NCBI RefSeq assembly: GCF_040958095.1
Contig: NC_091173.1
Coordinates: 20,325,082-20,389,081 of the forward strand
DNA: 64,000 nt
Direction of reading: 5' to 3'
From: Procambarus clarkii
Lineage: Eukaryota > Arthropoda > Malacostraca > Decapoda > Cambaridae
The notes under the pieces were generated by a model. That model saw only the letters and a list, made by a program, of their open reading frames with translations. It made no database searches and had not been told where the DNA came from. This document shows positions 2,641 through 63,656 of this stretch, one piece after another. The number at the start of each line of letters is the position of its first letter. The first letter of the stretch is position 1. A program made the translations under genes and the position numbers.

Positions 2641-3559
2641 CTTTCCTAAAAATCTTTGCGCATGTGCGCGCGTATAGTATCATTTCAAATACAATGTGTA
2701 AAAATAGTCCCAAAATAACGAACTTTGTCACTGTCCCAAACGCTTAAAGGTCGTGCTGTACATTCTTTCCTAATTTCTTACACCCCCCCCCCCTCCATCC
2801 CAAATATCCCCATTATCGCTATAAGTCTTTTCCTTCCGTACACAGATTTCCTTGTTGCTCCCACATGCTGGCCTCACTAGGTTAGGTGAAGAAATGCACC
2901 TTTGAGAATTCTGTCACTTTCACTTCTGTATTTTCCTACCTTATCTCTCCGATGCCACTTTCGTCAGTTCGGAAAGCTTTGGCTTGTAAAAGTTCTTTAC
3001 TCAAAAGGGGATATATTTCTTAATCGATAATCTGTAAAGGGGTCGTTTACCATTAGTTACACGAGACACACATTTATCTTATAAATTTTTGGGTTTGCGG
3101 TGTTTTTGCACTTTACAATTTGCTCTTATTGACGCTCACAGCTTCGACTGATCTGCCGTACCTGTCTTCAGGCAAGACTTGTTAAAGCTGCGGCCGTCTC
3201 CAATAGACGCATTCATAAATTTTTATATACAGTATTGTGCATAAAAATAAGTTTATTCTCGTATATAAATTAATATTATTATATATTAAAGTACTACTTA
3301 TAGTTAGGCATTGCTTAGGTTAGACTAGATGTGTAGATTCTGTAGGCGATTATTTGTATTTGAAGTACGTAGGTGAAGAATTTGAATTTTGATTTTTTTT
3401 TGAAGTATCTAGCAGGGAGGGGCCGGCACCGCCCCTCCCTCATTCTCTATGGCCGCGATAAGCGCACACAGCCCATCCTCCTCCCGGGAACGCTTCCTCA
3501 AGTGCACTTTCGCGCGAGTAATACTTTTTTCTTGTAGCTAGCATTAAGAGAGGGTTAGT
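2641..3559. other. No gene recognised
   Basis: Unassigned DNA. It contains a C-run near 2784-2793, AT-rich DNA near 3200-3400 and a GC-richer patch at 3415-3520 with a few CpGs. No splice-bounded exon or domain was seen. Confidence 0.4.
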
Positions 3560-11441: not shown

Positions 11442-13992
11442 CCAGTACGTCGCCCAGGTGCAGCTGTGCACCGGTCCAACACGTCGCCCAGGTGCAGCTG
11501 TGCACCGGTCCAACACGTCGCCCAGGTGCAGCTGTGCACCGGTCCAACACGTCACCCAGGTGCAGCTGTGCACCGGTCCAACACGTCGCCCAGGTGCAGC
11601 TGTGCACCGGTCCAACACGTCGCCCAGGTGCAGCTGTGCACCGGTCCAACACGTCGCCCAGGTGCAGCTGTGCACCGGTCCATCACGTCACCCATGTGCA
11701 GCTGTGCACCGGTCCAACACGTCGCCCAGGTGCAGCTGTGCACCGGTCCAACACGTCGCCCAGGTGCAGCTGTGCACCGGTCCAACACGTCGCCCAGGTG
11801 CAGCTGTGCACCGGTCCAACACGTCGCCCAGGTGCAGCTGTGCACCGGTCCATCACGTCACCCAGGTGCAGCTGTGCACCGGTCCAACACGTCGCCCAGG
11901 TGCAGCTGTGCACCGGTCCAACACGTCGCCCAGGTGCAGCTGTGCACCGGTCCAACACGTCGCCCAGGTGCAGCTGTGCACCGGTCCAACACGTCGCCCA
12001 GGTGCAGCTGTGCACCGGTCCAACACGTCACCCAGATGCAGCTGTGCACCGGTCCAACACGTCACCCAGGTGCAGCTGTGCACCGGTCCAACACGTCACC
12101 CAGGTGCAGCTGTGCACCGGTCCAACACGTCACCCAGATGCAGCTGTGCACCGGTCCAACACGTCACCCAGGTGCAGCTGTGCACCGGTCCAACACGTCG
12201 CCCAGGTGCAGCTGTGCACCGGTCCAACACGTCACCCAGGTGCAGCTGTGCACCGGTCCAACACGTCACCCAGGTGCAGCTGTGCACCGGTCCAACACGT
12301 CGCCCAGGTGCAGCTGTGCACCGGTCCAACACGTCACCCAGGTGCAGCTGTGCACCGGTCCAACACGTCGCCCAGGTGCAGCTGTGCACCGGTCCATCAC
12401 GTCACCCAGGTGCAGCTGTGCACCGGTCCAACACGTCGCCCAGGTGCAGCTGTGCACCGGTCCAACACGTCGCCCAGGTGCAGCTGTGCACCGGTCCATC
12501 ACGTCACCCAGGTGCAGCTGTGCACCGGTCCAACACGTCGCCCAGGTGCAGCTGTGCACCGGTCCAACACGTCGCCCAGGTGCAGCTGTGCACCGGTCCA
12601 ACACGTCGCCCAGGTGCAGCTGTGCACCGGTCCAACACGTCGCCCAGGTGCAGCTGTGCACCGGTCCAACACGTCGCCCAGGTGCAGCTGTGCACCGGTC
12701 CAACACGTCGCCCAGATGCAGCTGTGCACCGGTCCAACACGTCACCCAGGTGCAGCTGTGCACCGGTCCAACACGTCACCCAGGTGCAGCTGTGCACCGG
12801 TCCAACACGTCACCCAGGTGCAGCTGTGCACCGGTCCAACACGTCGCCCAGGTGCAGCTGTGCACCGGTCCAACACGTCGCCCAGGTGCAGCTGGGTCCA
12901 ACACGTCGCCCAGGTGCAGCTGTGCACCGGTCCAACACGTCGCCCAGGTGCAGCTGTGCACCGGTCCAACACGTCGCCCAGGTGCAGCTGTGCACCGGTC
13001 CAACACGTCACCCAGATGCAGCTGTGCACCGGTCCAACACGTCACCCAGGTGCAGCTGTGCACCGGTCCAACACGTCACCCAGGTGCAGCTGTGCACCGG
13101 TCCAACACGTCACCCAGGTGCAGCTGTGCACCGGTCCAACACGTCACCCAGGTGCAGCTGTGCACCGGTCCAACACGTCGCCCAGGTGCAGCTGTGCACC
13201 GGTCCAACACGTCGCCCAGGTGCAGCTGTGCACCGGTCCAACACGTCGCCCAGGTGCAGCTGTGCACCGGTCCAACACGTCGCCCAGGTGCAGCTGTGCA
13301 CCGGTCCAACACGTCGCCCAGGTGCAGCTGTGCACCGGTCCAACACGTCACCCAGATGCAGCTGTGCACCGGTCCAACACGTCACCCAGGTGCAGCTGTG
13401 CACCGGTCCAACACGTCACCCAGGTGCAGCTGTGCACCGGTCCAACACGTCACCCAGGTGCAGCTGTGCACCGGTCCAACACGTCACCCAGATGCAGCTG
13501 TGCACCGGTCCAACACGTCACCCAGGTGCAGCTGTGCACCGGTCCAACACGTCGCCCAGGTGCAGCTGTGCACCGGTCCAACACGTCACCCAGGTGCAGC
13601 TGTGCACCGGTCCAACACGTCACCCAGGTGCAGCTGTGCACCGGTCCAACACGTCGCCCAGGTGCAGCTGTGCACCGGTCCAACACGTCACCCAGGTGCA
13701 GCTGTGCACCGGTCCAACACGTCACCCAGGTGCAACTGTGCACCGGTCCAACACGTCGCCCAGGTGCAACTGTGCACCGGTCCAACACGTCGCCCAGGTG
13801 CAACTGTGCACCGGTCCAACACGTCGCCCAGGTGCAACTGTGCACCGGTCCAACACGTCACCCAGGTGCAGCTGTGCACCGGTCCAACACGTCGCCCAGG
13901 TGCAGCTGTGCACCGGTCCAACACGTCGCCCAGGTGCAGCTGTGCACCGGTCCAACACGTCACCCAGGTGCAGCTGTGCACCGGTCCAACAC
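11442..13992. repeat. 34-bp minisatellite, about 75 copies
   Basis: The unit reads cagctgtgcaccggtcc followed by aacacgtcgcccaggtg (34 bp). Copies are nearly identical. Variation is concentrated at a few sites: cgtcG/Accc, ccaG/Atg, tccaA/Tcac, and gcaG/Actg in a late cluster (13733-13840). One copy near 12892 has lost 6 bp (tgcacc). Each unit can fold into GGTGCA-GCTG-TGCACC, a 6-bp stem with a tetraloop. Because the unit lacks stops, several frames stay open for about 850 codons, but none begins with ATG, so I do not call a gene. A partial match in the left flank (11409-11430) may be the seed. Confidence 0.97.
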
Positions 13993-20982: not shown

Positions 20983-21352
20983 TACACACAGAAATCACAA
21001 TAGCGTGATGTATCAAATGCATCAATCCACAAGGGCCGTGACGAGGATTCGAACCTACGTCCGATAGCATCCCAGACGCTGCCTTAATCGACTGAGCTAC
21101 GACATGGTAAAAAGAGTTGAAACCAGAAGTTCTACTGAACTTACTTGGATTATGCAGCCTCTCCGAGACACAAATTAGGGTTTAACACAACTCCCCTATG
21201 CACTCGAGCTATGTCAATAGGCCGTTCTACCTCTTCGCCCTTACATCATTACACTCTTTTGACCATGTCGTAGCTCAGACGATTAAGGCAGCATCTGGGA
21301 TGCTCTCGGACGTAGGTTCGAATCCTCGTCACGGCCCTTGTGGATTTGTTTG
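20983..21352. mobile_element. SINE with two divergent tRNA-like heads and 13-bp TSD
   Basis: Flanked by direct repeats TTTTATGAGAAAT (20970-20982 and 21353-21365). Inside, two tRNA-like modules lie in opposite orientation: one on the minus strand (about 21108 to 21028), one on the plus strand (21265 to 21345). Each has an A-box (tagctcagnCGattaagg type) and B-box (ggttcgaatcc). The inverted arms extend past the tRNA part (catggtaaaaagag against ctcttttgaccatg). A single-headed relative with its own TSD is at 63284-63406. Confidence 0.8.
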
Positions 21353-24861: not shown

Positions 24862-25925
24862 ATTGGATAAGGGAGTATCTAATTAACAGAAGGTAGCGAG
24901 TCACTGTGAGGGGTGAGGTCTCAGATTGGCGAGATGTTACAAGTGGAGTCCCACAGGGTTCAGTCCTTGGACCTATACTGTTTCTGATATATGTAAATGA
25001 TCTCCTAGAGGGAATAGACTCGTTCTTCTCATTGTTTGCTGATGATGCAAAAATTATGAGGAGGATTAAGACAGAGGAAGATAGTATGAAGCTACAAGAT
25101 GACCTAGACAAACTGAATGAATGGTCCAAGAAATGGTTATTAAAGTTCAACCCGAGTAAATGTAAGGTAATGGAACTAGGTGCTGGAAACAGGCCAGACA
25201 CTGGATACAAAATGGGAGATGAAGTCCTTAATGAAACGGACAGAGAGAAAGATCTAGGAGTTGATATCACACTAAACCTGTCTCCCGAAGTCCACATCAA
25301 AAGAATAACATCTGCGGTGTATGCGAGGCTGGCTAACATCAGAACTGCCTTCAGGAACCTGTGTAAGGAATCATTCAGAACCTTGTATACCACATATGTA
25401 AGGCCAATCCTGGAGTATGCGGCCCCAGCATGGAGCCCGTACCTTGTCAAGCACAAGACGAAGCTGGAAAATGTTCAAAGATATGCCACTAGGCTAGTCC
25501 CAGAACTAAGAGGCATGAGTGAATAGGAAAAGCTGCGTGAACTACACCTCACGTCGCTGGAAGACAGAAGAGCTCGAGGAGACATGATCACCATGTACAA
25601 TATCCTCAGGGGCATTGACAGGTTAGATAAGGAGAGATTATCAACCACGAGTGGTACGCGAACAAGGGGACACAGGTGGAAACTAAGTACCTAAATGAGC
25701 CACAGAGACATTAGAAAGATTTTTTTTTTCAGTGTCAGAGTAGTTACTAAAGGGAATTCATTAATTAGGAAGTGATGTGGTGGAGTTTGACTCCATACAC
25801 AGTTTCAAATGTAGATATGATAGAGCCCAGTAGGCTCAGGAACCTGTACACCAGTAGATTGACGGTTGAGAGGCGGGACCAAAGAGCCAGAGCTCAACCC
25901 CCGCAAGCACAACTAGGTGAGCACA
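24862..25925 (+). pseudogene. CR1/Jockey-like LINE: RT half to 3' tail, longest copy in the window
   Basis: The longest uninterrupted stretch (24894-25526) covers RT motif B (SGVPQGSVLGPILFLIYVND), the catalytic box FADDAKIM, WLLKFNPSKCKVM, KDLGVDI and TTYVRPILEYAAPAW. It follows truncated DNA encoding WIREYLINRR, ended by TAG where the family has a Gln codon (C-to-T). Another TAG lies at 25524-25526, and a third stop replaces the Gln of the KLSTQMSHRD box. A T-run (25719-25729) breaks the frame. The 3' tail ends caagcacaactaggtgagca and then a short CA and long CT microsatellite. The RT N-terminus and endonuclease are absent. It copied RNA into DNA when active; this copy is dead. Confidence 0.92.
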
Positions 25926-28043: not shown

Positions 28044-28235
28044 GCCCTGGTAGCCTGGTGAATAGCGCGCAGGACTCGTAATTCTGTGGCGCGGGTTCGA
28101 TTCCTGCACCAGGCAGAAACAAATGGGCAAAGTTTCTTTCACTCTGAATGCCCCTGTTACCTAGCAGTAAATAGGTACCTGGGAGTTAGTCAGCTGTCAC
28201 GGGCTGCTTCCTAGGGTGTTTGTGTGTGTGTGGTG
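28044..28235 (+). mobile_element. tRNA-Thr-like SINE
   Basis: The A-box-like tagcctggtgaatagcgcgc and the B-box ggttcgattcc stand in tRNA spacing, with cctgg...ccagg acceptor-like ends. The anticodon-like position reads CGT in the loop ctcgtaa, suggesting a tRNA-Thr ancestor. The body carries cctagcagtaaataggtacc and gggctgcttcctagg, repeated at 54.55-54.60 kb. It is followed by a LINE tail. Confidence 0.75.
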
Positions 28236-31359: not shown

Positions 31360-31371
31360 CAAAGCCAATTT

Positions 31372-31552
31372 GTTGACCAGACCACACACTAGAAATTGAA
31401 GGGACGACGACGTTTCGGTCCGTCCTGGACCATTCTCAAGTCGATTGAATGGTTGAATGGTCCAGGACGGACCGAAACGTCGTCGTCCCTTCACCTTCTA
31501 GTGTGTGGTCTGGTCAACATACTTCAGCCACGTTATTGTGACTCCTCGCCTG
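31372..31552 (-). mobile_element. Hairpin SINE-like element, full length (minus)
   Basis: On the minus strand it begins caggcgaggagtcacaataa and ends tggtctggtcaa, like the copy at 52.56 kb. The core is a near-perfect hairpin with arms of about 65 bp (gacgacgacgtttcggtcc against its complement). Imperfect 12-bp flanking repeats caaagccaattt and caaagccagttt (31360-31371, 31553-31564) look like a target-site duplication. Confidence 0.8.

Positions 31553-36151: not shown

Positions 36152-36226
<75 letters not shown>
36152..36226. repeat. (TA)n microsatellite
   Basis: About 75 bp of TA just outside the left flank of the large palindrome. Confidence 0.97.
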
Positions 36227-36228
<2 letters not shown>

Positions 36229-36310
36229 CCACATACTGAGCGGACTGACACAATACCCACAAGAGTGGACCTTCTCTGACCCGATTTATACAATATATAT
36301 ATATATATAT

Positions 36311-37684
36311 GCGAACAAGCCTGAATGGTCCCCAGGACATATGCAACTGAAAACTCACACCCCAGAAGTGACTCGAACCCATACTCCCAGAAGCAACGCA
36401 TCTGGTATGTACAAGACGCCTTAATCCACTTGACCATCACGACCGGACAAAATGAGGTGATAGCCGAGGCTATTTGAACCACCCCACCGCCGGCACTCGG
36501 ATAGTTATCTTGGGCATAGCATTTTACCAAATCACCTCATTCTTTGGGGCAACACGTGAGGAACACAAATGCGAACAAGCCTGAATGGTCCCCAGGACAT
36601 ATGCAACTGAAAACTCACACCCCAGAAGTGACTCGAACCCATACTCCCAGAAGCAACGCATCTGGTATGTACAAGACGCCTTAATCCACTTGACCATCAC
36701 GACCGGACAAAATGAGGTGATAGCCGAGGCTATTTGAACCACCCCACCGCCGGCACTCGGATAGTTATCTTGGGCATAGCATTTTACCAAATCACCTCAT
36801 TCTTTGGGGCAACACGTGAGGAACACAAATGCGAACAAGCCTGAATGGTCCCCAGGACATATGCAACTGAAAACTCACACCCCAGAAGTGACTCGAACCC
36901 ATACTCCCAGAAGCAACGCATCTGGTATGTACAAGACGCCTTAATCCACTTGACCATCACGACCGGACAAAATGAGGTGATAGCCGAGGCTATTTGAACC
37001 ACCCCACCGCCGGCACTCGGATAGTTATCTTGGGCATAGCATTTTACCAAATCACCTCATTCTTTGGGGCAACACGTGAGGAACACAAATGCGAACAAGC
37101 CTGAATGGTCCCCAGGACATATGCAACTGAAAACTCACACCCCAGAAGTGACTCGAACCCATACTCCCAGAAGCAACGCATCTGGTATGTACAAGACGCC
37201 TTAATCCACTTGACCATCACGACCGGACAAAATGAGGTGATAGCCGAGGCTATTTGAACCACCCCACCGCCGGCACTCGGATAGTTATCTTGGGCATAGC
37301 ATTTTACCAAATCACCTCATTCTTTGGGGCAACACGTGAGGAACACAAATGCGAACAAGCCTGAATGGTCCCCAGGACATATGCAACTGAAAACTCACAC
37401 CCCAGAAGTGACTCGAACCCATACTCCCAGAAGCAACGCATCTGGTATGTACAAGACGCCTTAATCCACTTGACCATCACGACCGGACAAAATGAGGTGA
37501 TAGCCGAGGCTATTTGAACCACCCCACCGCCGGCACTCGGATAGTTATCTTGGGCATAGCATTTTACCAAATCACCTCATTCTTTGGGGCAACACGTGAG
37601 GAACACAAATGCGAACAAGCCTGAATGGTCCCCAGGACATATGCAACTGAAAACTCACACCCCAGAAGTGACTCGAACCCATAC
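36311..37684 (-). repeat. Tandem 260-bp units, left arm
   Basis: Units repeat every 260 bp and appear identical in every full copy read. Each carries, on the minus strand, the tRNA-Leu-like module described for the right arm. The frame of about 88 codons in each unit opens on TTG and shifts between units because 260 is not a multiple of three, so it is not a gene. Confidence 0.95.
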
Positions 37685-39670
37685 ACTCGGATAACTATCC
37701 GAGTGCCGGCGGTGGGGTGGTTCAAATAGCCTCGGCTATCACCTCATTTTGTCCGGTCGTGATGGTCAAGTGGATTAAGGCGTCTTGTACATACCAGATG
37801 CGTTGCTTCTGGGAGTATGGGTTCGAGTCACTTCTGGGGTGTGAGTTTTCAGTTGCATATGTCCTGGGGACCATTCAGGCTTGTTCGCATTTGTGTTCCT
37901 CACGTGTTGCCCCAAAGAATGAGGTGATTTGGTAAAATGCTATGCCCAAGATAACTATCCGAGTGCCGGCGGTGGGGTGGTTCAAATAGCCTCGGCTATC
38001 ACCTCATTTTGTCCGGTCGTGATGGTCAAGTGGATTAAGGCGTCTTGTACATACCAGATGCGTTGCTTCTGGGAGTATGGGTTCGAGTCACTTCTGGGGT
38101 GTGAGTTTTCAGTTGCATATGTCCTGGGGACCATTCAGGCTTGTTCGCATTTGTGTTCCTCACGTGTTGCCCCAAAGAATGAGGTGATTTGGTAAAATGC
38201 TATGCCCAAGATAACTATCCGAGTGCCGGCGGTGGGGTGGTTCAAATAGCCTCGGCTATCACCTCATTTTGTCCGGTCGTGATGGTCAAGTGGATTAAGG
38301 CGTCTTGTACATACCAGATGCGTTGCTTCTGGGAGTATGGGTTCGAGTCACTTCTGGGGTGTGAGTTTTCAGTTGCATATGTCCTGGGGACCATTCAGGC
38401 TTGTTCGCATTTGTGTTCCTCACGTGTTGCCCCAAAGAATGAGGTGATTTGGTAAAATGCTATGCCCAAGATAACTATCCGAGTGCCGGCGGTGGGGTGG
38501 TTCAAATAGCCTCGGCTATCACCTCATTTTGTCCGGTCGTGATGGTCAAGTGGATTAAGGCGTCTTGTACATACCAGATGCGTTGCTTCTGGGAGTATGG
38601 GTTCGAGTCACTTCTGGGGTGTGAGTTTTCAGTTGCATATGTCCTGGGGACCATTCAGGCTTGTTCGCATTTGTGTTCCTCACGTGTTGCCCCAAAGAAT
38701 GAGGTGATTTGGTAAAATGCTATGCCCAAGATAACTATCCGAGTGCCGGCGGTGGGGTGGTTCAAATAGCCTCGGCTATCACCTCATTTTGTCCGGTCGT
38801 GATGGTCAAGTGGATTAAGGCGTCTTGTACATACCAGATGCGTTGCTTCTGGGAGTATGGGTTCGAGTCACTTCTGGGGTGTGAGTTTTCAGTTGCATAT
38901 GTCCTGGGGACCATTCAGGCTTGTTCGCATTTGTGTTCCTCACGTGTTGCCCCAAAGAATGAGGTGATTTGGTAAAATGCTATGCCCAAGATAACTATCC
39001 GAGTGCCGGCGGTGGGGTGGTTCAAATAGCCTCGGCTATCACCTCATTTTGTCCGGTCGTGATGGTCAAGTGGATTAAGGCGTCTTGTACATACCAGATG
39101 CGTTGCTTCTGGGAGTATGGGTTCGAGTCACTTCTGGGGTGTGAGTTTTCAGTTGCATATGTCCTGGGGACCATTCAGGCTTGTTCGCATTTGTGTTCCT
39201 CACGTGTTGCCCCAAAGAATGAGGTGATTTGGTAAAATGCTATGCCCAAGATAACTATCCGAGTGCCGGCGGTGGGGTGGTTCAAATAGCCTCGGCTATC
39301 ACCTCATTTTGTCCGGTCGTGATGGTCAAGTGGATTAAGGCGTCTTGTACATACCAGATGCGTTGCTTCTGGGAGTATGGGTTCGAGTCACTTCTGGGGT
39401 GTGAGTTTTCAGTTGCATATGTCCTGGGGACCATTCAGGCTTGTTCGCATTTGTGTTCCTCACGTGTTGCCCCAAAGAATGAGGTGATTTGGTAAAATGC
39501 TATGCCCAAGATAACTATCCGAGTGCCGGCGGTGGGGTGGTTCAAATAGCCTCGGCTATCACCTCATTTTGTCCGGTCGTGATGGTCAAGTGGATTAAGG
39601 CGTCTTGTACATACCAGATGCGTTGCTTCTGGGAGTATGGGTTCGAGTCACTTCTGGGGTGTGAGTTTTC

Positions 39671-39672
<2 letters not shown>
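37685..39672 (+). repeat. Tandem 260-bp units, right arm, with Pol III-type modules
   Basis: Seven to eight identical units. Each has a perfect A-box (TGGTCAAGTGG, first at 37763) and B-box (GTTCGAGTC, first at 37821), 58 bp apart as in class II (Leu/Ser) tRNAs, then TTTT in gagttttcag about 35 nt later, a possible Pol III terminator. Acceptor- and T-stem pairing is poor, so these are tRNA-Leu-derived SINE-type units, not working tRNA genes. The last unit ends abruptly at (TA)n. Confidence 0.9.
37756..37856 (+). ncRNA. Representative tRNA-Leu-like Pol III unit (repeated in each copy)
   Basis: The proposed transcript runs from the gtcgtga acceptor-like 5' end through the A-box and a long variable region to the T-run. 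A potential RNA of about 100 nt would come from each of roughly 13 copies on the two arms. Expression is untested. Confidence 0.35.
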
Positions 39673-39747
<75 letters not shown>

Positions 39748-39811
39748 CAATTAAAATACATACATAAAATCAAAAATATATATATATACAATATATATAT
39801 ATATATATATT
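39673..39811. repeat. (TA)n arrays at the right shoulder of the palindrome
   Basis: About 70 bp of TA, a short AT-rich spacer (39744-39772), and a second TA run that continues into the inverted flank. Confidence 0.95.
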
Positions 39812-39954
39812 GTATAAATCGGGTCAGAGAAGGTCCACTCTTGTGGGTATTGTGTCAGTCCGCTCAGTATGTGGGGTCTCGGGAAGGTCTGGTGGTCGTG
39901 GATGCGTCTGATCACTGGTCGTTGAAGAGTAGCTTGAAGAAGAAGAAGTGGTAG

Positions 39955-40172
39955 ATGTGTGCCTCACGGCACACATCTACCACTCACGACACACACATCT
40001 ACCACTCACGGCACACATCTACCACTCACGGCACACATCTACCACTCACGACACACACATCTACCACTCACGGCACACATCTACCACTCACGGCACACAT
40101 CTACCACTCACGACACACACATCTACCACTCACGGCACACATCTACCACTCACGACACACACATCTACCACC
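39955..40172. repeat. 20-22-bp minisatellite (cggcacacatctaccactca)
   Basis: Ten units, alternating a 20-bp cggcaca form and a 22-bp cgacacaca form. The left junction is a short inverted repeat (tggtagatgtgtgcc then ggcacacatctacca, 39949-39980). Confidence 0.95.

Positions 40173-41350: not shown

Positions 41351-41420
<70 letters not shown>
41351..41420. repeat. (TA)n microsatellite, left of MITE
   Basis: About 70 bp of TA. Confidence 0.97.
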
Positions 41421-41425
<5 letters not shown>

Positions 41426-41804
41426 GTACCTAGTAGCCAGAACGCACTTCTCGGCCTACTATGCAAGGCCCGATTTGCCTAATAAGCCAAGTTTACTGAA
41501 TTAATATATTTTTTCTCTAATTTTTTTCTTATGAAATGATAGAGCTACCCATTTCATTATTTATGAGGTCAATTTTTTTTTATTGGAGTTAAAATTAACG
41601 TAGATATATGACCGAACCTAACAAACCCTACCTAACCTAACCTATCTTTATTGGTTAGGTTAGGTTAGGTAGCCGAAAAAGTTAGGTTAGGTTAGGTTAG
41701 GTAGGTTAGGTAGTCGAAAAACAATTAATTCATGAAAACTTGGCTTATTAGGCAAATTGGGCTTTGCATAGTAGGCTGAGAAGTGCGTTCTGGCTACTAG
41801 GTAC

Positions 41805-41809
<5 letters not shown>
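41421..41809. mobile_element. MITE with 74-bp terminal inverted repeats and TTAGG core
   Basis: The left terminus (atgtcgtacctagtagccag, 41421-41494) is the reverse complement of the right (41736-41809) with about three mismatches in 74 bp. The core holds a hairpin of (CCTAA)n at 41626-41645 against (TTAGG)n at 41653-41672 and further ttaggttagg runs. The element sits inside (TA)n on both sides, consistent with TA-targeted insertion. It has no coding capacity. A diverged terminus of the same family lies at 50.57-50.63 kb. Confidence 0.9.

Positions 41810-41899
<90 letters not shown>
41810..41899. repeat. (TA)n microsatellite, right of MITE
   Basis: About 90 bp of TA. Confidence 0.97.
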
Positions 41900-50661: not shown

Positions 50662-50875
<214 letters not shown>

Positions 50876-52563: not shown

Positions 52564-52750
52564 CAGGCGATGAGTCACAATAACGTGGCTAAAGTATGAT
52601 GACCAGACCACACACTAGAATGTGAAGGGACGACGACGTTTCGGTCCGTCCTGGACCATTCTCAGGTCATTCTCACAATCGACTTGAGAATGGTCCAGGA
52701 CGGACCGAAACGTCGTCGTCCCTTCACATTCTAGTGTGTGGTCTGGTCAA
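52564..52750 (+). mobile_element. Hairpin SINE-like element, full length, 15-bp TSD
   Basis: Flanked by perfect direct repeats CACTAGAGGCAAGTG (52549-52563 and 52751-52765). The element begins caggcgatgagtcacaataa, has a 36-bp unpaired head, then two near-perfect 68-bp inverted arms (52600-52668 and 52681-52749) around a 12-base loop. A 15-bp TSD and lack of true terminal inverted repeats favour target-primed retroposition over a DNA transposon. No clear Pol III boxes and no coding capacity. Confidence 0.88.
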
Positions 52751-52765
52751 CACTAGAGGCAAGTG

Positions 52766-63283: not shown

Positions 63284-63406
63284 CACACAGAAATCACAAG
63301 AACGTGATGCATCAATTGTCGTAGCTCAGTCGATTAAGGCAGCGTCTGGGATGCTCTTGGACGCAGGTTCGAATCCTCATCACGGCTCTTGTGGATTTGT
63401 TCATTT
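63284..63406 (+). mobile_element. Single-headed tRNA-like SINE with 11-bp TSD
   Basis: Flanked by GTGCTTTCTAA at 63273-63283 and 63407-63417. The A-box tagctcagtcgattaaggc and B-box ggttcgaatcc are perfect; the leader is cacacagaaatcacaag and the tail gtggatttgttcattt. It is nested inside the preceding SINE and is the simple form of the two-headed element at 20.98-21.35 kb. Confidence 0.85.
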
Positions 63407-63656
63407 GTGCTTTCTAATTACTTTGTTGCTGACTACAGGGGAACACACACACGCGTGTGAGCTGTGTGTTGGTTCCGTTAATGTTTTCCTTACATTACTG
63501 CCCCTGTGGGCTCCGGGCGGTGGGTTAGGGCCCGCGGGCGCTCAAGTTATAACTGAGTTAGGTAACTTTGTGGTAACTCCTGGAGTGAGCGACGGGTCCT
63601 GTCTTTGGGGATTTGGCTCAGATGCCCAGCCTTCATTGTGACTGCTGAGTCTGACG

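Follow-up and report, generated by a model that had tools for sequence, protein, structure and literature searches.

In the genome of the decapod Procambarus clarkii there is a 3.6-kb palindrome that consists of two opposed arrays of one 260-bp unit, set between (TA)n tracts. It lies in a 64,000-nt stretch of contig NC_091173.1 (positions 20,325,082 to 20,389,081 of the forward strand; C24 among our contigs), hereafter called the window, whose own numbering is used below. The palindrome is one member of a dispersed family and not a private inverted duplication. It was probably born two-armed, as a single insertion of a non-autonomous retroelement derived from a transfer RNA (tRNA), by the copying of one template from two primers.

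A dispersed family of two-armed arrays

In a tandem-repeat scan the array matches are 100% in both arms of the window palindrome, and its 12 full units are identical, the five on the left having one sequence and the seven on the right its reverse complement. A preliminary description, made from the sequence alone, had reported opposed 260-bp arms of 5.3 and 7.6 copies with full units alike, and (TA)n shoulders beside them; the identity of the units bears out the former and the same scan the latter. The inverted flanks that it gave as 67 bp are indeed present but are really 85 bp long and exact. It placed the turn-around at 37685; the strand does switch there, and the switch can now be refined to a 22-nt hairpin (table 1) inside the 130-nt gap between two exact mirror arms (36309-37684 and 37815-39190, 1376 nt each, centre 37749.5). 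An assembly fold-back is very unlikely to be the source of this structure, because the arms are unequal and their outer ends differ, and because 25 further two-armed elements are built in the same way, within different flanks and mostly with different turn-arounds.

The genome scanned comprised 4,027,284,227 bases in 2308 contigs (4.03 Gb). An 89-nt core of the unit, with at most 3 mismatches, was found at 78,720 places (39,702 forward and 39,018 reverse), and a reversed-pattern control at none. The 100 core places listed were all exact and all on a single contig, C1, where they fall in 17 loci; this sample is biased to young copies. Fifteen of these 17 loci are minus-then-plus arrays, L041 joins them with a right arm of 19 bp, and only L033 is one-sided. 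Ten further loci were drawn from 91 genome-wide examples of the terminus described below as end B with a short TA run, and thus were chosen for one end while the other was left free. In the resulting 28 stretches (the window and L027-L053) a script found 37 pieces: 26 were minus/plus, none plus/minus, seven minus only and four plus only. L051 held no clean element, and L035 and L036, which have flanks and turn-around in common, count as one event at most. All 26 two-armed elements thus have the same polarity, with their tRNA-like heads outward. A typical short interspersed element (SINE) would be found mostly as a single unit with one 3' tail; here 26 of the 37 pieces are two-armed, in a sample chosen by exact core or by end B. 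Six pieces of the unit had no match in exact-match scans of viral contigs or in a text search of papers; unit pieces likewise had no match among phages, and among genome contigs a single bacterial match of 19 nt.

The unit itself resembles a tRNA. A pair of RNA polymerase III (Pol III) promoter boxes, 58 nt apart, is present in eight right-arm and five left-arm units, 13 in all, at the spacing of a class II tRNA; the consensus sequences that we took for the boxes were TRGYNNARNNG (A box) and GWTCRANNC (B box). Such a pair arose in 4 of 2000 dinucleotide-shuffled units, and the next TTTT lies 25 nt past the start of the B box, so that what the preliminary description had said of the boxes, their spacing and the nearby TTTT was correct. 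The unit core aligned to tRNA-Leu with a score of 54, which 500 shuffles did not approach (at most 34); a second tRNA-Leu scored 48, and tRNAs for Ser, Lys and Met 31, 28 and 22. The tRNA sequences used, and with them the label tRNA-Leu, are ones that we presume to be correct. No tRNA was called in the unit by ARAGORN or Rfam. These alignments support a tRNA-derived, SINE-like unit, as first proposed. The proposed history of an array that was later inverted is not supported, as the termini described below show. The boxes face outward in both arms, and Pol III transcripts would therefore diverge; the suggestion that opposing transcription could yield double-stranded RNA did not survive, and to form it the predicted transcripts would need long read-through.

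Other tRNA-like sequences occur in the window. An inverted pair of 94-bp copies (21024-21117 and 21253-21346; 96%), separated by 135 bp and with A and B boxes 45 nt apart, represents a second tRNA-like family, once inverted, and a third, single copy of it (91-93%) lies at 63317-63407. At 28045-28115, near a (CA)n tract, both ARAGORN and Rfam found a tRNA-Thr(CGT)-like gene, which could be a gene or a SINE head.

Two exact ends, one template per locus

Wherever they are intact, the outer ends of the family sit in (TA)n and stop at one of two exact points, 36 nt apart in the unit. End A, TTCGCAT followed by (AT)n, is at unit position 260, and end B, TTTTCAGTT followed by (AT)n, is at about position 224. 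Among the 26 two-armed elements, 20 have one end of each kind, one (L047) has two B ends and none has two A ends; the remainder show another end (L045, L049), meet an assembly gap (L028, L029) or run off the stretch (L046). Seventeen of the 20 were classed by rule and three by eye (L044, L048, L052): the rule had called these three "other", and they were reassigned because a C of the target interrupts their TA run. Genome-wide there are 15,209 exact A ends and 12,004 exact B ends, with none for the reversed controls.

The pairing also holds where elements were not selected. On contig C1 up to 33.86 Mb (100 exact A and 71 exact B ends, neighbours within 10 kb) there are 40 facing pairs of exact ends, of which 38 are A+B (21 and 17 in the two possible orders), two A+A and none B+B. 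In 10,000 shuffles of the end labels the mean number of A+B pairs was 19.5 and the maximum 31. At end B, moreover, the GCATAT of the unit reads ATATAT in most loci, as would follow from loose pairing of a (TA)n primer, at its 3' end, with GCAUAU on the RNA and from subsequent extension.

These termini bear directly on the earlier reading of the locus as a tandem satellite with one inverted duplication. The window turn-around does coincide with a short inverted repeat, GATA-GT-TATC, in the unit, and replication template switches often take place at such repeats, according to the available excerpts of two studies (PMC4689423, PMC10766186). However, the same design, with A+B ends, recurs at the other two-armed loci, and a later inverted duplication is not supported because the arms end in two different exact termini. 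As a general account this reading is refuted, and we consider it most improbable. A narrower version, a local template-switch palindrome with a 110-bp asymmetric deletion, was rejected as a full account by the genome-wide family, its polarity and the A+B data.

The two arms of a locus are nearly always copies of the same monomer. Between the left and right arm consensus of the same locus, 9 of 4,193 sites differ (0.2%; 20 elements, five of the nine sites being in L047), as against 2,562 of 78,021 (3.3%) between left and right arms of different loci; this comparison leaves out the ten positions beside end B as well as L029 and L036 (duplicates) and L041, L048, L049 and L050 (short arm). All 23 variants that separate L044 from the window unit are found in both of its arms, as are all 24 in L046, while in L047 14 variants are common to both arms and two and three are private to one arm. 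In L032 a deletion of 1 nt and two substitutions are common to both arms, and at unit position 119 each two-armed locus compared has either T in all units of both arms or A in all of them.

By contrast with this uniformity within a locus, the unit phase of the turn-around varies from locus to locus, with 14 different phases among 16. The repeated turn-arounds, in L028/L029 and L035/L036, come with identical sequence outside the arrays, as duplicated DNA would. A 36-nt pattern over the window turn-around was found at one place in the genome with up to 2 mismatches.

The target is (TA)n. A C interrupts the TA run in L044, L048 and L052, where the element has ACATATATAT on either side; target duplications of about 10-12 bp are thus present at three of five informative loci. 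None is visible at the window locus. Its 85-bp flank does not resemble the unit (a score as high is reached by 284 of 300 shuffles), and the outer 31 nt of the flank, with at most 3 mismatches, occur in the 4.03-Gb genome only as its two copies. L033 also lies inside locus-specific inverted flanks (55 bp, 98%), and between its flanks there is a direct match too, of 73 bp. At L043 a direct repeat of 277 exact bp plus TA runs, with weak inverted matches also, is found on both sides; it represents an earlier tandem duplication or else a target duplication of great length. The other 13 of the 16 loci compared showed no inverted flank repeat. The inverted flanks at the window locus and at L033 may be the halves of a TA-centred palindromic target.

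At 50663-50874 the window includes a 212-bp palindrome that has (TA)n at its centre and lacks an insertion; it exemplifies such a target. The window also contains inverted arms of about 163 bp (41351-41513 and 41717-41879; 96%) bounded by (AT)n; their end GTCGTACCTAGTAGCCAGAAC, or a near form of it, recurs beside (TA)n at L032, L039, L046 and L054-L056.

Two DNA-based explanations have to be weighed against these observations. The family could be a fold-back DNA transposon of the Tetris or Galileo kind (Galileo: PMC3688188, in excerpt), moved by cut and paste, with A and B as its ends and its centre revised in each copy by deletion. Fixed ends and long inverted arms of subrepeats would be natural for such an element, and the central revision would account for the differing turn-arounds. 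In Drosophila virilis, the accessible part of PMC4079207 describes Tetris arms built of subrepeats of about 220 bp, similar in size to the unit here, together with a common outer flanking domain and target duplications of 8-10 bp. In the present family, however, the two ends are offset sites of one unit, and neither a common outer domain nor an outer terminal inverted repeat was found. The 85-bp flank is unique to the window locus and the flanks of other loci differ; this flank was considered as the terminal inverted repeat of a fold-back transposon and rejected, its outer 31 nt being at these two places only. A common DNA source should, furthermore, spread its turn-around, and the dispersed copies in the sample have none in common, so that the differing turn-arounds speak against it. 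We therefore consider a fold-back transposon unlikely.

Alternatively, breaks in (TA)n might be filled on both sides from an existing element by synthesis-dependent annealing, with early joining producing a new turn-around. Such repair copying needs no enzyme of its own, and it would account for A on one side and B on the other, for the (TA)n flanks and for the identical units in both arms. Yet it gives no target duplication, while one is seen at three of five informative loci, and its donor must already be an A+B palindrome; we judge it improbable.

Proposed copying from two primers and its possible engine

The (TA)n flanks, the polarity, the A+B rule, the single template of each locus, the differing turn-arounds and the target duplication at three loci are all read from the genome copies. 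What we propose is that an enzyme would cut both strands of a (TA)n tract and that both exposed (TA)n 3' ends would anneal to one RNA, one at site A and the other at site B. Reverse transcription would then run in the same RNA direction from both sites, for several rounds of a monomeric 260-nt circle or, alternatively, along a multimer of identical units. Each side would gain a tandem array with the RNA 3' end outward, and the two complementary DNAs (cDNAs) would be joined mid-way at random phase to give a minus/plus palindrome. Double-sided copying on a single template explains the polarity, the paired ends, the identical units and the private turn-arounds together, and such double-primed copying appears to us quite likely. 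The RNA intermediate, its circularity and a Penelope-like (GIY-YIG) reverse transcriptase as engine we infer.

A circle seems somewhat more probable than a multimer. A monomeric circle would offer only one site of each kind, so that one end is A and the other B. The fold of the monomer as a circle is unremarkable: its value of -83.5 compares with a mean of -75.6 over 60 shuffles, the lowest of which reached -87.6. The near-strict pairing could come from a small circle that offers each site once, or from the halves of a dimer acting in concert. A multimer would suit another explanation, twin priming of the type seen in long interspersed elements (LINEs), acting on a long multimeric transcript of one array. 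Twin priming by LINEs leaves inverted 5' parts with the same polarity, and the window itself contains a reverse-transcriptase fragment (24897-25523; Pfam RVT_1, E 5e-16), which we take to be of LINE nature. But A and B recur in each unit of a multimer, and A+A and B+B elements should then be common; they make up 3 of 61 classed cases (21 two-armed elements and 40 C1 pairs, which are overlapping samples). Coordination by a dimer could still enforce A+B on a multimer; nonetheless, LINE-type twin priming is in our judgment an unlikely source of the family.

Copying from both break ends has a counterpart in the Penelope-like elements. In vitro, a Penelope-like protein cuts AT-rich DNA on both strands and extends each of them, and it uses two adjacent internal starts that bound a 30-40-bp tail; tandem copies are a further feature of Penelope-like elements (PMC11167929). 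In its genome copies the present family shows A and B sites 36 nt apart, a (TA)n target and two arms. The choice of site differs: nearly every classed insertion here uses one A and one B, while no difference in start between strands was seen in vitro. We give a Penelope-type enzyme about an even chance of being the engine. GIY-YIG frames are present in the genome (at least 30 matches, with 150 scored of 4,843 candidates), and at L056 a GIY-YIG frame (E 9e-7) comes after a reverse-transcriptase-like one (RVT_1, E 2e-4, below the Pfam cut-off). Of the five GIY-YIG loci compared, four have (TA)n runs within them or next to them. Inside one GIY-YIG locus, L055, a relative of the unit (3250-3518, minus strand, 91%) ends in (TA)n.

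The closest parallel for the template is provided by the metazoan non-long-terminal-repeat retrozymes, described in excerpts of PMC7229834 as non-autonomous, with small tandem units of 150-450 bp. For such small circular RNAs it is proposed that autonomous elements, in animals likely Penelope-like ones, provide the machinery by which they are copied to multimeric cDNA and inserted (excerpts of PMC7761336 and PMC7229834). Small dispersed tandem units are the rule here too, with 260 bp and the many core places given above. In contrast, each retrozyme unit has a type I hammerhead, and the 260-bp unit has none that we could find and carries tRNA-like Pol III boxes instead; nor is a palindromic two-armed insertion with paired A/B ends described in those excerpts, the word "inverted" being absent from the available text of PMC7229834. 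Tandem units with a tRNA-like stretch are also known from the Cynops PolIII/TAN repeat (about 360 nt) and Rana/polIII (250 nt), as well as Xenopus OAX and SINE-derived satellites of squamates; in the excerpts of PMC10702118 these are treated as satellites, unlike the present family, and neither "inverted" nor "palindrom" occurs. Among the literature matches listed, in which subscription papers are thinly covered and sources are represented in part, there was no description of palindromic retrozymes or palindromic SINE arrays.

A number of observations weigh against this proposal. The target duplication is absent at two of the five informative loci, L050 and L053, where a C stands in the left TA run only. 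On C1, 91 of the 171 exact ends lack an exact partner that faces them at 10 kb or less, as would happen if the partner had mutated, if half of the element had been lost or if the end were a variant form. As many as 168 of 376 between-locus arm comparisons also differ by 0.5% or less, and since the monomers of many young loci are almost alike, the case for a single template depends on those loci that have distinctive variants. In the five of 30 GIY-YIG loci compared, no significant stretch is common with the unit except the inserted copy in L055, and the start region expected of a partner was not found. TTTT follows the B box within 25 nt, and a Pol III transcript is expected to end before it spans the unit; a full-unit transcript would therefore need read-through. 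Neither strand of the unit contains the hammerhead core, which we took to be CTGANGA, and Rfam finds no ribozyme in it; there is therefore no known way to make the circle. Finally, the Penelope-like start site did not differ between strands in vitro (PMC11167929), and a strict one-A-one-B rule therefore needs an extra cause. The most specific form of the proposal, a ribozyme-free, tRNA-derived circular RNA that is rolling-circle copied from both break ends so that every such insertion is born a palindromic array, is advanced only tentatively, at somewhat less than even chances.

If true, it would give retroelements a new mode of insertion and palindromic satellites a new origin. The insertion of Penelope-like elements and retrozymes is an open question, and the in vitro study leaves the later steps to be validated (PMC11167929). 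The exact A and B ends counted above record both sides of the reaction, that is, the start used, the cDNA junction and the template sequence, and the palindrome family may thus reveal the mode of insertion of a little-understood class of jumping genes. It would also explain a one-step origin of scattered palindromic satellites whose units are identical, and it distributes Pol III-like boxes that face outward through TA-rich DNA.

Layout of the window locus and neighbouring repeats

Table 1. Features of the palindrome in the window, in order of description along the locus
Feature	Position	Strand	Basis
(TA)n tract outside the left inverted flank	36152-36226	.	tandem-repeat scan
Left copy of the exact 85-bp inverted flank, of which the inner end consists of the (TA)n next to the array	36226-36310	+	
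Left arm (5.29 units of 260 bp), ending on its outer side at end A (unit position 260)	36309-37684	-	
Turn-around hairpin, 10-bp arms and 2-nt loop	37684-37705	.	
Right arm (7.66 units of 260 bp), ending on its outer side at end B, here in the short form CAG/ATAT	37690-39680	+	
A box to B box, first right-arm unit	37763-37829	+	
Further right-arm A boxes	38023, 38283, 38543, 38803, 39063, 39323, 39583	+	
Left-arm A boxes	37476, 37216, 36956, 36696, 36436	-	
91-nt stretch within the unit, bounded by a perfect inverted repeat of 11 bp	37918-38008	+	
(TA)n tract adjoining end B	39673-39743	.	
Right copy of the 85-bp inverted flank	39793-39877	-	

Several further repeats are found in the window. 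Close to the palindrome, at 39947-40171, there are 20-22-bp repeats of CTCACGGCACACATCTACCA, which start with an inverted copy. Two palindromic copies of one short inverted-repeat family, 90% alike, lie at 31371-31519 and 52597-52752. The region 11447-13992 is a 34-bp minisatellite of 75 copies with 97% matches, open in three forward frames.

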